From: Prochlorococcus sp. AG-402-C09
GTDB lineage: Bacteria > Cyanobacteriota > Cyanobacteriia > PCC-6307 > Cyanobiaceae
Direction: 5' to 3'
DNA length: 64,000 nt
Assembly: GCA_003279565.1 (NCBI GenBank)
Contig: QCHN01000006.1
Span: 1-64,000, forward strand
Part shown: positions 42,222 through 52,781 of the stretch, in pieces
How the letters are laid out: every line of letters begins with the position of its first letter
Numbering within the stretch: the stretch's first letter is position 1
Position numbers and translations under genes: made by a program
The notes under the pieces: model-generated
What the model was told of the DNA's origin: nothing
Seen by the model: the letters and a program-made list of their open reading frames with translations, nothing else
Database searches by the model: none

Positions 42222-44296
<2,075 letters not shown>

Positions 44297-44351: not shown

Positions 44352-45515
44352 CTAAACAATATTTTGTACATCTAAGACAAAAGTTTGGTTTGAAGAAATC
44401 CCAAGGTCATGAAGTAAATTTGACAAAATAGGGATTTGAGTAACGAAACTTGAAAGTAATCTGTATTGAACCTCTGCTCTATATAGATTATGAGTTTGGT
44501 ATTTTATTTTGAAGTACCTATTTGATTGCAAAAAATCGTTCAAAAATCTAATAGTTAATTCAATGATTATCAAATAAATAAATTCAGGAAGGAATTCAAA
44601 ACAGTAATTACCCTTTTGATTTAGTAATGAAAAATAGCCATTAAGAAAATACTTACAAGATTTAATATCAAAGAATACACCCTCTATATTTTCTGGATCA
44701 CCGCCTGCCAGATTACAAATTGAACGGATACAGTCAGCTAAATCAGTAAGCAAATAACCAGAAGAGACAGTATCTAGATCAATTAAAGAAACGACATATT
44801 TTGATTTGATGTCAAAGAGAAAATTACTTAATTTAGGATCACCATGTATAACACTAAAATCTATTAATTTCCCCTCTAAAGATCGTAAAATATATTCAAC
44901 ATACAGTACGTGATTAGATAAACTAAAAATTAAGTTTTGAACCCTTTTATTTACTTCATAATCTAATTTGGAAAAGTTATAATCTTTAAGATTTAGAATA
45001 TATTGATCTAGGTAGTACTTAGTATTATGAAAATTTTTAATACTACTTTCTAATTTTGAAGAATCCAGATCAGAACAATTTATATGAAACTTCGCGAGAC
45101 CAAGACCAGTTTGATAAGCCATTATTTTATCTTCTAAAGTATCTAAGCTAAAAGTATCATCTATATATACCATCGCCCGCCAAAAATCCGAACCAAGTTG
45201 TAACCCAAAAAGGTTATTAGATCTACACTTAATCAAAGATGGAACCTCCCATCTTTGATAATCAAAATCATGACGCTTTACATTAGATTTCTTTCCAATA
45301 TGATCTGTTATTAATTTATGATTAATATTAACTATCTCAGGGGATTCAAATATATCACTAAGACACTGTAAAATGAATTTAGACTTTATTCCATCAATTG
45401 AATGTTGAATTATATAGGTTTTATTTATAAGACCTGAATCTATCAAATCTATCTTTAAAACTTGACTATTATTGAAAAAGTTATGTGTAATCAGTTTTAT
45501 TTTTTCAACATCCAT
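44352..45515 (-). CDS. aminoglycoside/choline-kinase-like phosphotransferase
   Basis: A 387-residue APH-fold kinase. Catalytic loop FSVIHGDPKLSNFLFD (Asp and Asn, about residues 219-234) and metal-binding LIDLDTVSSGYLLTDLADC (about 244-262). These place it in the APH/HSK2/ChoK superfamily, which phosphorylates sugars, choline or amino alcohols; it need not concern antibiotics. Follows the 513-aa gene by 10 bases in the same direction, and the StpA-like phosphatase sits beyond a divergent promoter, hinting at one sugar-phosphate pathway. Confidence 0.75.
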   Translation of the reverse strand: MDVEKIKLITHNFFNNSQVLKIDLIDSGLINKTYIIQHSIDGIKSKFILQCLSDIFESPEIVNINHKLITDHIGKKSNVKRHDFDYQRWEVPSLIKCRSNNLFGLQLGSDFWRAMVYIDDTFSLDTLEDKIMAYQTGLGLAKFHINCSDLDSSKLESSIKNFHNTKYYLDQYILNLKDYNFSKLDYEVNKRVQNLIFSLSNHVLYVEYILRSLEGKLIDFSVIHGDPKLSNFLFDIKSKYVVSLIDLDTVSSGYLLTDLADCIRSICNLAGGDPENIEGVFFDIKSCKYFLNGYFSLLNQKGNYCFEFLPEFIYLIIIELTIRFLNDFLQSNRYFKIKYQTHNLYRAEVQYRLLSSFVTQIPILSNLLHDLGISSNQTFVLDVQNIV

Positions 45516-45525
45516 AGAATTTAGA

Positions 45526-47067
45526 TTATGAATTAGACCTTATTAAATTAGTTTCTATATAATCAATAACCTTATTATAGATTGTCTTTTTTTCTGATTC
45601 TAATGGATTAGACAAATCAATATCATTCAAGTCAAAAGACAATCGATCCTGTTCAGTTAATGACTTAGTTATAAAATCAATAGAAGTTTTCAAATGAAAA
45701 TTATTTAGTGAATCAGATATTTTCTTACTCTTAAATGACTTAACAGATTCTTGACAATAATTAGTTAACTCACGACTCTTTGTCATAACAGTATAAATAT
45801 CTTTTTTAATCCCAGGGGGTGCCATTATACACATATATAGAAGGTTTATCATTGAGGAATTGCTCAAGGGTATTGAATATTTCCTCAAGATATGTGGCCA
45901 ATAATTTAAAGAATTTATCCCTTCTAAAGCCCCTCGTTTAAGACCAGATTTTTCGCACCATTCTATAAACTCATCTACTCCTTTCGGACATCTTTTAAAC
46001 TCAATCATCCTCTCAGCGAGGACTTCACCAGCTTGAAAGTTCCTAGTTGGCTTACCACTTACAGGCAACATCATGCTTCCTCTGACATCAGCAACCATAG
46101 CTGTTAACTGACTAAAAGTATGATCTCTTACCTGTACGAAGTCTCCATCCTTTACGAAGGATGCATCTATACGTTGGACGCTATATCCAAGTTCAGTAAT
46201 AGGAAAAGGTTGATTTGTATATAAATTCTCTCTATCAGTTCGACACATGGAAACATAGCCAGCCTGATCCAAGCATTGATCTAATAAAAGAGTTAATAAA
46301 GTTGGTAGTAATCCAGGATTATTCTTATGAAAAGCATGACCAAAACCCGCCAAAATTGAAGAAATATTTTTAGCAGCTTTTATATATTGACCTTCGACGT
46401 TATGAACACCTGCTGAAACTTGGATATTTGGGGAAATTTTATTTAATAATTTTGCGCCTAATATTGCATTCATAGCATTTGGATGGCAAAAATTAGCAGT
46501 AAAACTATCTAATGGATTCCGAAGAGCACCGTGTCGATGGAAACCAGAAAAGAAGGCTAGGTTATTTAATTTTTCGCATAAAACAAAAGATTCATTCTTT
46601 TCTTGGTCATGACAAAATGATCCAACCAGGCATGCAATTAAAACATTATCTCGATTAAGCTCCTTTCTAAGCTTAAATGCTAAGTCAACGTCACTTATTA
46701 TATGTTTACTATTTGAACTTAAAACAACCAATTCACAGTTAATTATTAGATCTTCAAGAGTATTATATCGTCCGGAATTATCAACATTTGAAATCGCCAT
46801 AGATTCAATTTTAGTTTTTATAGCGTTATCCATTTCTGAAAGATCAATATCAGAAAAAGCTCCAAAAAGTTCTCTACCTTCTCTAGGAGCTAGAAGAATA
46901 TTTAATCCTTGATTATGCAACGCACAATTATAAGCAAGAGAGGCAGGATATAAACCAACACTATAAAATCCAACTCTTCCATTCAAAACCTCTCTAATTC
47001 TTATCGCTATAGGCTCACTTGAATAAGGTTCAGTAAAGAAGCTATTAGTTAAATTCTTTTCAAACAC
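45526..47067 (-). CDS. unrecognised 513-aa protein with possible nucleotide-binding N-terminus
   Basis: The N-terminus resembles a Rossmann start without the full glycine pattern (GFYSVGLYPASLAYNCALHN, about residues 33-52), and the segment ELVVLSSNSKHII (about 111) fits the second half of such a fold. A central region is rich in His and Asn (FHRHGALRNPLDSFTANFCH, about 174-193). Conserved-looking blocks are SAGVHNVEGQYIKAAKNIS and CMAPPGIKKDI-like stretches. No signal peptide. A dehydrogenase or epimerase role is only possible. Operon with the kinase downstream (10-base gap). Confidence 0.65.
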   Translation of the reverse strand: MFEKNLTNSFFTEPYSSEPIAIRIREVLNGRVGFYSVGLYPASLAYNCALHNQGLNILLAPREGRELFGAFSDIDLSEMDNAIKTKIESMAISNVDNSGRYNTLEDLIINCELVVLSSNSKHIISDVDLAFKLRKELNRDNVLIACLVGSFCHDQEKNESFVLCEKLNNLAFFSGFHRHGALRNPLDSFTANFCHPNAMNAILGAKLLNKISPNIQVSAGVHNVEGQYIKAAKNISSILAGFGHAFHKNNPGLLPTLLTLLLDQCLDQAGYVSMCRTDRENLYTNQPFPITELGYSVQRIDASFVKDGDFVQVRDHTFSQLTAMVADVRGSMMLPVSGKPTRNFQAGEVLAERMIEFKRCPKGVDEFIEWCEKSGLKRGALEGINSLNYWPHILRKYSIPLSNSSMINLLYMCIMAPPGIKKDIYTVMTKSRELTNYCQESVKSFKSKKISDSLNNFHLKTSIDFITKSLTEQDRLSFDLNDIDLSNPLESEKKTIYNKVIDYIETNLIRSNS

Positions 47068-47150
47068 AGCTTGTTTGCATTCAATTACATTATATACAAA
47101 AAGAAGAAACTTTAAAAAAGAGTTTTGATAATACTGAATATATATCTATA

Positions 47151-47170
47151 TACTTATTTGAGAATAAGTA
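47151..47170. promoter_or_regulatory. 20-base palindrome in divergent promoter region
   Basis: TACTTATT (47151-47158) and AATAAGTA (47163-47170) flank TGAG, forming an 8-bp perfect inverted repeat in the 163-base gap between the 513-aa gene (minus) and the StpA-like gene (plus). It is placed to control both sides. It could be an operator, but AT-rich sequence makes chance palindromes more common. Confidence 0.4.
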
Positions 47171-47230
47171 CTAACAAGAAAGAGTATATTTATTTGAGAT
47201 AGAGTAAAATTATATTTAAAAGCTTCTTTT

Positions 47231-48430
47231 ATGAAAACCCCTAAAACAAAAGAAGAGATTATCAACAAAATAGTAAATGAAGAAAACATCTTAATAGTTC
47301 AGGATCTTGACGGGGTATGTATACCACTTGTTCAAGACCCACTTACAAGAGAGATTGACAAAAAATACGTGGAGGACGTTTCAAAACTAAGAGATAAGTT
47401 TTCAGTACTAACTTGTGGTGAGCATGAAGGCAGAAGAGGCGTTAATCGTTTAGTAGAGAAGGCACTTAATTCAAGGACAAAAGCCAAAGAGAATGGTTTT
47501 TATCTACCCGGTCTTGCTGCTTGTGGAGTTGAGTTTCAAGATAGATTTAGCAATTTATCCTATCCAGGTCTCAATGATGAAGAGATTAATTTTTTGGCAA
47601 AAGTTCCAAAAATGATGCGATTAATGTTAACTAATGAATTAAAGGAATTCTTTCCAAATCTATCAAATCATGTAAGGAATAAATTAATTGATGTGGCTGT
47701 ATGCGATACACGTTTTACTCCCACACTCAACTTTCATGAAATCTTTGGCTACGTAAAAAATGATTTAAAAAAAATAAAAGTTTTGCAATTAATTATGGAA
47801 AAAATAATGAATAATTTATTAGAAGATTCCAAAAGCCTTGGATTAGAAAACTCTTTTCATTTGCATTTAGTGCCAAATTTAGGTTCGAACAATGGCAGAG
47901 AAATAATGAAATATGCAACTCAAGATGAATTCGGTACAACAGATATTCAGTTTATTATTAATGGTGCCATAAAGGAGGCAGGTCTTTTATTTCTATTAAA
48001 TAAACATATATCAAACAAAACTGGTGTTTATCCTTTTGGTGCAAACTTCAACGTTAGAGAAGCCCCAAAGACACTTAATAAATTAATAGACTTATGCAAA
48101 GATAAAATCCCTCTTGATCAAATGCCACTGCTAATAGGTATTGGGGATACGGTTACATCGGTAAAAGATGATAAAACTAATTCTTGGTTAAGAGGTGGAA
48201 GTGATAGAGGTTTCTTAACCTTGATCCAACGATTAGGAGAGGCGTACAAGAAAGATAATCAAGTTATTTTTGTCAATAGTTGCAATGAGCAAGTATCAAG
48301 GCCAAGAATTAATGGAAGCAATATGAAAGGCATCAGTGATCCCAATGATGATTTAAAATTCAATATGATTATCAATGATGGTCCACCGGAATATATAACG
48401 TGGTTTGAAAAATTAGCTAGCAAATTCTAG
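47231..48430 (+). CDS. stpA: glucosylglycerol-3-phosphate phosphatase-like HAD enzyme
   Basis: A 399-residue protein of the StpA/GgpP family (salt-tolerance phosphatase) which dephosphorylates glucosylglycerol 3-phosphate to the compatible solute glucosylglycerol. The HAD nucleophile motif is ILIVQDLDGVCIPLVQDPLTR (positions about 17-37, Asp-Leu-Asp). LPLLIGIGDTVTSVKDD (about 299) is the C-terminal HAD acid motif. No synthase (ggpS) is in the window. The natural substrate might differ (for example another glycosyl-glycerate phosphate). ATG start. Confidence 0.82.
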   Translation: MKTPKTKEEIINKIVNEENILIVQDLDGVCIPLVQDPLTREIDKKYVEDVSKLRDKFSVLTCGEHEGRRGVNRLVEKALNSRTKAKENGFYLPGLAACGVEFQDRFSNLSYPGLNDEEINFLAKVPKMMRLMLTNELKEFFPNLSNHVRNKLIDVAVCDTRFTPTLNFHEIFGYVKNDLKKIKVLQLIMEKIMNNLLEDSKSLGLENSFHLHLVPNLGSNNGREIMKYATQDEFGTTDIQFIINGAIKEAGLLFLLNKHISNKTGVYPFGANFNVREAPKTLNKLIDLCKDKIPLDQMPLLIGIGDTVTSVKDDKTNSWLRGGSDRGFLTLIQRLGEAYKKDNQVIFVNSCNEQVSRPRINGSNMKGISDPNDDLKFNMIINDGPPEYITWFEKLASKF

Positions 48431-48506: not shown

Positions 48507-49451
48507 ATGAAAATAACTAGTACAAAGTTTCCAAAAATCAAAAGAGACTATCTCGATACTTTACAAATAAATATAGGTTATAAATGTAATCAAGCTTGTA
48601 GCCATTGTCACGTTGATGCAAGTCCAAGCAGGACAGAAATGATGAATGACAATATTATAAAACTTATACCAAAAGTTATAAAAGCTAATAATATTAAGCT
48701 GTTAGATATTACTGGAGGAGCTCCCGAACTTCATCCTAGATTCAAGCAACTAGTAAAAGAAGTACGTAGTCTTAATGTTGAAGTAATGGACAGATGTAAT
48801 TTAACGATACTTACAGAACCAGGTCATGAAAATTTAGCAAGTTTTCTAGCCTCAAATAAAGTACAAATAACAGCATCCCTTCCTTGTTATCTCGAATTTA
48901 ATGTGGACAATCAAAGGGGGAAAGGCGTTTTTGAAAAAAGTATATTAGCGCTTAAACAACTTAATTATTATGGCTATGGCATAAAAGAAAGTGGTTTGCT
49001 TTTGAACCTAGTTTACAACCCTAACTCTCCACAACTCCCTCCATCACAAAAAGAATTAGAAGATACATATAGACGAGAACTAAAAGAAAGATATGGTATT
49101 TTTTTCTCAAATTTATTTGTTTTAGCAAATATGCCAATTAATAGATACGAAAAGTATTTAAAGGTAATTGGAAAACTAAAAGAATATAATAAATTACTTG
49201 AAGATAATCATAACCCTATAAACCTTAATTCAGTAATGTGTAGATCAACTCTTAGTGTTGATTGGGAAGGCTATCTATATGATTGTGATTTCAACCAACA
49301 ACTTGGAATGAGGAGAGATGGTGACATAAAGCATTTGGATGACCTATTAATTCCACTTGTCTCTTTAAAAAATAATCCTATTTCAATCGGCAATCATTGT
49401 TTTGGCTGTACCGCCGGAGCTGGTTCTAGTTGCGGGGGAGAATTAACTTAA
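48507..49451 (+). CDS. arsS: radical SAM protein, arsenosugar biosynthesis ArsS-type
   Basis: A 314-residue radical SAM enzyme of the ArsS (TIGR04167) type. Cluster motif CNQACSHCHVDASPSR (C-x3-C-x2-C, about residues 27-42), LDITGGAPELHPRF (about 71), MDRCNLTIL, and a cysteine-rich C-terminal end CFGCTAGAGSSCGGELT with auxiliary cluster ligands. In arsenosugar synthesis ArsS modifies methylated arsenic on adenosine; its usual partner arsM is not seen here. ATG start; short distance to convergent Fur gene. Confidence 0.85.
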   Translation: MKITSTKFPKIKRDYLDTLQINIGYKCNQACSHCHVDASPSRTEMMNDNIIKLIPKVIKANNIKLLDITGGAPELHPRFKQLVKEVRSLNVEVMDRCNLTILTEPGHENLASFLASNKVQITASLPCYLEFNVDNQRGKGVFEKSILALKQLNYYGYGIKESGLLLNLVYNPNSPQLPPSQKELEDTYRRELKERYGIFFSNLFVLANMPINRYEKYLKVIGKLKEYNKLLEDNHNPINLNSVMCRSTLSVDWEGYLYDCDFNQQLGMRRDGDIKHLDDLLIPLVSLKNNPISIGNHCFGCTAGAGSSCGGELT

Positions 49452-51758: not shown

Positions 51759-52781
51759 TTATCTTAGGTTCTTATCAATTATAGATCTAGTTAAATCCCA
51801 TAATTTATTAGATAAATCTTCACTCTGTGCATCATTACTTATATCTGTTTTCTCAAAAACAAATTTTCCTGATGAAATGATTTTATTACTATAGTAATTG
51901 AAACCACGTTTATTATATTTAATTGAGCAAGCTAAATCACTTAGAATTAAACCTGCTTTTTTATTTGACGTAGTTATTCTTAAAATATCTCTGGCTAAAA
52001 AAGCAAATAATACTTGCCCTAATTGATTGTATTTTCTACTATACCTAAAAAAGCCTTGGCTATCTCTAGATATAACTAAGCCTGGTGCCCAAGCTATAAC
52101 AGGGATTGATATGTTTTTTCTTATCAAATTGCTACTTAGCTTTTTCGCGAAAAGAATATTACATAATTTACTATCCTTATATGCTTTATCAGCATTAAAC
52201 TTACTTCCATCAATCATCTCAAACCCTGCTCCTGATTCTAATCCTTCTAAAGTTCCTAAGTTAGCCTTAGATCCTACTCTCCCCCCACCACTCTTAGGAT
52301 TATGAACCTCAGAAGAGGTGATAATTATTTTTGGATCATTGCTTTTATCTATCAAGGGTAAAATCTTTTGTGTCAGATAGAAATGTGATAAATGATTGAC
52401 AGCAAAAGTTAATTCGATTCCCTGAGTTGACCATCTAGGTTTTTTTGACCCTGTATATTGTAGCCCCGCATTCATGATTAAAATATCAATCTTCAGTCGT
52501 CTTTTCTTAATTTCTAAACATATAGAGTCAATACTTTTCAAATCAGATAGATCCATTATAGGAGTATAAATATTCCCTTTTTTAGATAATTGAGCTGGAA
52601 ATTGATTAAAAATATTAGTTAATAATTCATTTGCTCTAGAAGTACTTTTGCATGGTAAAATCATATTATGACCATAAGAAATTAACTTTAAAGCTGCTTG
52701 ATAACCAATTCCTGATGACCCACCTGTTATAAAAATAGTTAAAGGTTTAAACTTTTTTGAATAATCTGATTTTTTTGCCAT
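51759..52781 (-). CDS. short-chain dehydrogenase, protochlorophyllide-reductase-like
   Basis: A 340-residue SDR. Nucleotide-binding FITGGSSGIGYQAALKLISY (about 17-36), NAGLQY, and catalytic YKDSKLCN (about 205), as in light-dependent protochlorophyllide oxidoreductase (POR). The POR-type YKDSKLCN motif and length fit the POR/RDH-like group, but the sequence departs in the substrate region, so it is probably a paralogue rather than POR. ATG start. Divergent from crtL-b. Confidence 0.72.
   Translation of the reverse strand: MAKKSDYSKKFKPLTIFITGGSSGIGYQAALKLISYGHNMILPCKSTSRANELLTNIFNQFPAQLSKKGNIYTPIMDLSDLKSIDSICLEIKKRRLKIDILIMNAGLQYTGSKKPRWSTQGIELTFAVNHLSHFYLTQKILPLIDKSNDPKIIITSSEVHNPKSGGGRVGSKANLGTLEGLESGAGFEMIDGSKFNADKAYKDSKLCNILFAKKLSSNLIRKNISIPVIAWAPGLVISRDSQGFFRYSRKYNQLGQVLFAFLARDILRITTSNKKAGLILSDLACSIKYNKRGFNYYSNKIISSGKFVFEKTDISNDAQSEDLSNKLWDLTRSIIDKNLR

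Follow-up and report, generated by a model that had tools for sequence, protein, structure and literature searches.

The window examined here is a stretch of 64,000 nucleotides from Prochlorococcus sp. AG-402-C09 (contig QCHN01000006.1, positions 1 to 64,000), within which this study concerns a gene encoding a 513-residue protein, termed p513, and the two genes that flank it, which encode a StpA-type phosphatase and a kinase. The features of the locus are as follows.

44352..45515, minus strand: kinase of the APH fold (Pfam APH), with NahK as its nearest solved relative; a neighbour outside the conserved unit.
45526..47067, minus strand: p513 (513 amino acids, GTG start), candidate NAD(P)H-dependent glycerol-3-phosphate dehydrogenase, from the open reading frame, an AlphaFold model, fold searches and distribution.
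47068..47230, no strand: divergent p513/StpA promoter region, from an intergenic alignment of 33 loci of the genus.
47151..47170, no strand: palindrome of 20 bases, TACTTATT-TGAG-AATAAGTA, whose core CTTATT..AATAAG is largely conserved within the genus.
47231..48430, plus strand: StpA/GgpP-type phosphatase (HAD fold, sugar-phosphatase group), from PF09506, TIGR02399 and a structure model.

The reading frames of all three genes are open and their coordinates exact. Ten bases lie between p513 and the kinase and 163 between the divergent p513 and StpA genes, a spacer that is ~160 bp long in almost all members of the genus among the 33 loci aligned. The palindrome that the initial annotation had noticed in this short promoter region is real, its exact form being present in a few relatives only and its core in most of the genus; it is possible that it serves as a putative regulator site. 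The same annotation read p513 and the kinase as an operon, an arrangement that holds for this genus and fails across the wider family. Purifying selection acts on all three genes, with a median ratio of non-synonymous to synonymous substitution (dN/dS; 91 pairs) of 0.15 for p513, 0.15 for StpA and 0.28 for the kinase. The copies of p513 closest to that of the window are from Prochlorococcus.

p513 has no sequence match in Pfam, NCBIfam (where a lyase model is the best hit, at only 14 bits) or the PDB, and a profile-based search likewise yielded nothing usable. An AlphaFold2 model was built from an alignment of 58 sequences (predicted local distance difference test (pLDDT) 85, predicted template modelling score (pTM) 0.86). 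The top 17 chains retrieved by Foldseek with this model were all glycerol-3-phosphate dehydrogenases (GPDHs), as were the 16 best entries in VIA-align (Z 22.8-28.3), which were headed by GpsA of Coxiella (3k96; Z 28.3, root mean square deviation 2.9 Å over 310 residues); the next fold after the GPDH entries was ketopantoate reductase, at Z 14.3. The predicted structure of p513 is thus that of a GPDH, comprising a Rossmann domain and a helical C-domain, and the guess of a Rossmann fold in the initial annotation proved to be right. That annotation would have been refuted by a match of p513 to a known unrelated family, and this has come about in part: the fold is that of a known family, albeit a related one, as glucosylglycerol is made with glycerol-3-phosphate (G3P) as the acceptor.

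About 100 positions are invariant across the p513 family, among them K233-N234 and R342-N343 in the 58 sequences; the former pair lies within a long helix and the latter where a helix begins. A third pair is E382-G383. By motif mapping, as distinct from superposition, these pairs resemble K161-N162, R225-N226 and E251-G252 of GpsA; the GpsA-type counterparts in the human enzyme are the catalytic K204-N205 and the phosphate-binding R269-N270, with K120 as the first active-site lysine. Comparison of p513 with GpsA by hhalign returned a non-significant probability of 1.9%, and the single local match that it produced places RN on RN.

G3P is the backbone of bacterial glycerolipids, and Prochlorococcus comprises the ocean's most abundant photosynthetic cells. 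In 400 Cyanobiaceae genomes the canonical G3P dehydrogenase GpsA (PF07479) was present in 145 and p513 in 226, with 26 genomes encoding both and 345 at least one. Among the 251 good genomes in the set (>=90% complete, <=5% contaminated) the corresponding figures were 104 for GpsA, 164 for p513 and 21 for both, such that 247 contained one or the other; p513 is thus present in nearly all of the marine picocyanobacteria without the usual enzyme. PF07479 was absent from 16 genomes of the genus of the window (two of them complete), and none of the matches listed for the 400-genome set belonged to this genus; complete genomes from the genus likewise lacked GpsA, as did most of the high-light Prochlorococcus tested. 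PF01210 covers the GpsA gene, and does so in GpsA-bearing genomes only. The complete ggpS-less Prochlorococcus genomes tested contained neither a GlpD/GlpA C-domain nor the glycerol kinase GlpK. In contrast PlsY, which consumes G3P, was found in 31 of 31 genomes tested. A report from 2012 noted that EC 1.1.1.94 was unannotated in Prochlorococcus and in Synechococcus WH7803 (PMC3369817), and a later study described marine strains with a glpA dependent on flavin adenine dinucleotide and freshwater strains with gpsA (PMC9361551). It should be emphasized, however, that glpA and glpK accompany ggpS and are both missing from Prochlorococcus genomes that lack ggpS, and thus cannot be the source of G3P in those organisms. 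p513 occurs in 122 genomes in which neither GpsA nor GgpS was found, and is retained by genomes that have been streamlined to a small size (1.6-1.8 Mb); where both of those proteins are missing it is the only recognisable candidate for forming G3P. We propose that p513 acts as an NAD(P)H-dependent G3P dehydrogenase of highly divergent sequence, converting dihydroxyacetone phosphate to sn-glycerol-3-phosphate, and put the probability of this reading at about 70%; the sequences, their linkage and distribution, and the predicted fold are shown here, whereas its substrate, cofactor, direction and cellular role are inferred.

The initial annotation tied p513 to a glucosylglycerol-type phosphatase, and the distribution of the two proteins bears this out. 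Both are encoded by 223 of the 400 genomes, p513 alone by 3, StpA alone by 12 and neither by 162; that is, 223 of the 238 genomes with either hold both. In many marine lineages, high-light Prochlorococcus among them, the two genes are divergently oriented neighbours; in euryhaline strains (for example G082, G113, G134 and G246) they are separated yet both present. CH-040 and ATX 6A2, freshwater strains reported to carry ggpSP (PMC9361551), are both among the p513 loci. Within the 145 genomes that encode GpsA, p513 and GgpS occur together in 24, each without the other in 2, and 117 have neither. p513 tracks GgpS in these genomes and thus may supply G3P for glucosylglycerol; indeed glucosylglycerol is synthesized with G3P as the acceptor (PMC6753628), and a dehydrogenase that provides G3P therefore suits the company of StpA and GgpS. 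It could be argued from the way that p513 follows GgpS and StpA within the GpsA genomes that it is a G3P dehydrogenase for glucosylglycerol-type solutes only, and that the lipid G3P of Prochlorococcus comes from a second enzyme. We consider this distinctly improbable, as p513 persists in the 122 genomes with no GpsA or GgpS found.

Two further occurrences of these genes were recorded. G386 (also L199), a high-light Prochlorococcus, is alone among the genomes of its high-light genus in this set in carrying ggpS, and on its contig 1, at about 1417899-1433945, glpK and glpD lie within 16 kb of ggpS in what is a glucosylglycerol island. p513 is also present, away from StpA, on two Leptolyngbyaceae contigs (L120, 8989-10515; L132, 293-1804), where it has other neighbours, a transporter-like gene adjoining it in L132; these copies branch with those of euryhaline Synechococcus and Cyanobium, which suggests horizontal transfer.

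The phosphatase scores 530 bits against TIGR02399, for which the equivalog cut-off is 365.5, and 555 bits against PF09506. Its model (pLDDT 95) is that of a HAD phosphatase, and the nearest structures are trehalose-6-phosphate phosphatases (Z 22.7), a fold that leaves the substrate undecided. The residues of the DxD and GDT motifs (D25, D27, G305, D306 and T307) are invariant in the 27 sequences compared. GgpS (TIGR02398) was found neither in the genome of the window (G000) nor in complete genomes from the genus, in keeping with the absence of a synthase remarked on in the initial annotation. Cysteines at positions 62, 98 and 158, one of which falls within the LT(N/C)GEH motif, are fixed together in 74 crown-Prochlorococcus loci, including that of the window; the 49 other picocyanobacterial loci have N, G and L/I/F, respectively, with no intermediates, a tally in which some loci are the same genome counted twice. 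The trio marks a clade and, judged from sequence, hints at an altered function. It does not mark every loss of GgpS, as G088, which has no GgpS match, retains N, G and L. Previous work showed that strain MIT 9303, which carries ggpP and lacks ggpS, produces no glucosylglycerol, and suggested that the ggpP of Prochlorococcus may have acquired sucrose-phosphate phosphatase activity (PMC11505929). In contrast, another study includes glucosylglycerol in its list of potential osmolytes present in cells of Prochlorococcus (PMC9298688). A published table assigns a two-domain sucrose-phosphate synthase to NATL strains and a synthase without the phosphatase domain to high-light strains (PMC4390843); spsA was not found in the terminal regions of complete genomes, where it was looked for.

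Several observations weigh against p513 being a G3P dehydrogenase. No relative of p513 reaches the cut-offs of PF01210 or PF07479, the best result being the GPDH C-terminal Pfam with an E value of 0.11 in 1 of 25 relatives; because it falls below these curated models we do not place p513 in the GpsA sequence family and say only that it would work like GpsA. By motif mapping, position 148 of p513, where GpsA has its first active-site lysine (K78; human K120), is V, A or S, and the GxGxxG loop reads SxGxxP at positions 36-41, and thus cofactor binding or the substrate may differ. Co-inheritance with a salt-stress phosphatase would be unexpected for a protein with a purely lipid role. Neither p513 nor GpsA was detected, profile search included, in four good genomes (G072, G131, G348 and G412), a result that likely reflects gaps in draft assemblies. 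Finally, the co-occurrence counts and Fisher values ignore kinship and, as the genomes are not phylogenetically independent, the significance is overstated, although a similar pattern recurs in several genera.

Some of these points would suit an enzyme of the GPDH fold that acts on another phosphorylated ketone, generating the precursor of an undescribed phosphorylated solute that is then dephosphorylated by StpA, with the G3P of Prochlorococcus coming from elsewhere. The missing lysine and classical dinucleotide loop, the near-perfect co-occurrence with StpA, the three fixed cysteines of the crown-Prochlorococcus phosphatase, and the retention of p513 in 122 GpsA-less genomes in which GgpS, the known partner of StpA, was not found are all consistent with such an activity. 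The R-N and K-N pairs that resemble the phosphate-binding and catalytic motifs of GpsA are, however, invariant, and this explanation does not account for the source of G3P in cells in which PlsY is universal and GpsA, GlpD and GlpK are absent; we regard it as unlikely. The degenerate GxGxxG and the lysine lost in the motif mapping could be features of a non-catalytic or regulatory GPDH relic with a metabolite-sensing role in the salt response. This is very improbable for a protein with so many invariant positions and a dN/dS of 0.15 that is kept in streamlined genomes. A G3P dehydrogenase remains the reading that we favour.

The kinase passes the threshold of PF01636 (APH; 33.2 versus 23.2 bits), and H224, D226, N231, D246 and D248, comprising the HGDxxxxN motif and the aspartates of the metal motif, are invariant. 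It was missing from all six complete high-light genomes tested and from G062, in which p513 and StpA are adjacent without it; the pair also stands together at further high-light loci, that of G313 among them. Freshwater genomes with neither p513 nor StpA do carry the kinase, at other positions, and it evolves faster than the other two proteins. A role for the kinase in a p513/StpA pathway was rejected on this distribution, and we therefore treat it as a neighbour. The initial annotation envisaged a single pathway in which an uncommon osmolyte would be synthesized, phosphorylated and dephosphorylated by the products of the three genes; the 10-base gap between p513 and the kinase in the genus, and a gene order conserved in many marine loci, could be cited in its favour. 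Such a set is hardly credible: as an obligate unit it is contradicted by the genomes that retain the p513-StpA pair and lack the kinase, and p513 resembles a G3P dehydrogenase and not a new synthase. The broader suggestion that the locus holds an undescribed piece of metabolism is supported.

Three other genes of the neighbourhood are conserved. Between metY and the kinase and p513 genes lies a gene for a 231-residue protein (43601-44296, minus strand) with no Pfam or NCBIfam match, whose position is maintained across marine picocyanobacteria. Directly 3' of StpA in the conserved block is an ArsS-type radical SAM protein (48507-49451, plus strand; TIGR04167, 444 bits), a family of arsenosugar biosynthesis. 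A short-chain dehydrogenase (51759-52781, minus strand), also conserved in the block, scores 143 bits to a protochlorophyllide reductase model with a cut-off of 331 and appears to be a paralogue. No anti-phage defence model was matched, and no Rfam family or tRNA was found in the region.

In the model that we propose, p513 would use NAD(P)H to reduce dihydroxyacetone phosphate from carbon fixation to G3P. In marine picocyanobacteria p513 would replace the lost GpsA and deliver G3P to PlsY and the membrane lipids, whereas in euryhaline strains that have GpsA the G3P from p513 would pass to GgpS, with GgpP/StpA then releasing glucosylglycerol. After the loss of GgpS, Prochlorococcus would have retained p513 for lipids as its sole recognisable source of G3P, while StpA may have been kept beside it as a sugar-phosphatase, for which sucrose-6-phosphate is the published substrate suggestion; the kinase would have its own unrelated job. 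A wider scenario, plausible if somewhat short of probable, is that all the G3P of marine picocyanobacteria derives from this unrecognised dehydrogenase lineage, which may have entered together with a salt response based on glucosylglycerol, taken the place of GpsA and outlived glucosylglycerol, the three fixed cysteines marking a subsequent re-purposing of the phosphatase. If p513 is indeed a G3P dehydrogenase, it may be the enzyme by which Prochlorococcus makes the backbone of its membrane lipids. As a single named candidate it makes the G3P annotation gap testable, and it links the supply of membrane lipids with the salt response at the boundary between marine and freshwater strains.

The proteins of the locus share features with, and depart from, characterized systems. 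The kinase aligns with the N-acetylhexosamine 1-kinase NahK (4wh1, 4ocj) over 340 residues (E 1.5e-23), a relation seen by sequence only, and the two have the motifs HGDPKxxN and IDLDT in common; the kinase stands outside the p513-StpA unit. The phosphatase of the window passes the equivalog cut-off of GgpP/StpA, but in Prochlorococcus of this type its partner GgpS is missing. p513 shares with GpsA the whole fold, over about 310-330 residues, at an identity of 10-16% in the structural alignments among the matches listed, and takes the place of GpsA in marine genomes without it. It is, however, longer by about 180-200 residues, through insertions and a C-terminal extension, and in contrast to GpsA is tied to StpA. 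In other cyanobacterial glucosylglycerol clusters, in which ggpS is accompanied by glpD, glpK, gpsA and gghA (PMC6753628), a G3P dehydrogenase gene likewise lies beside a glucosylglycerol gene. p513 differs from these systems in that it would represent an unrecognised dehydrogenase lineage, and in that it persists after ggpS has been lost.

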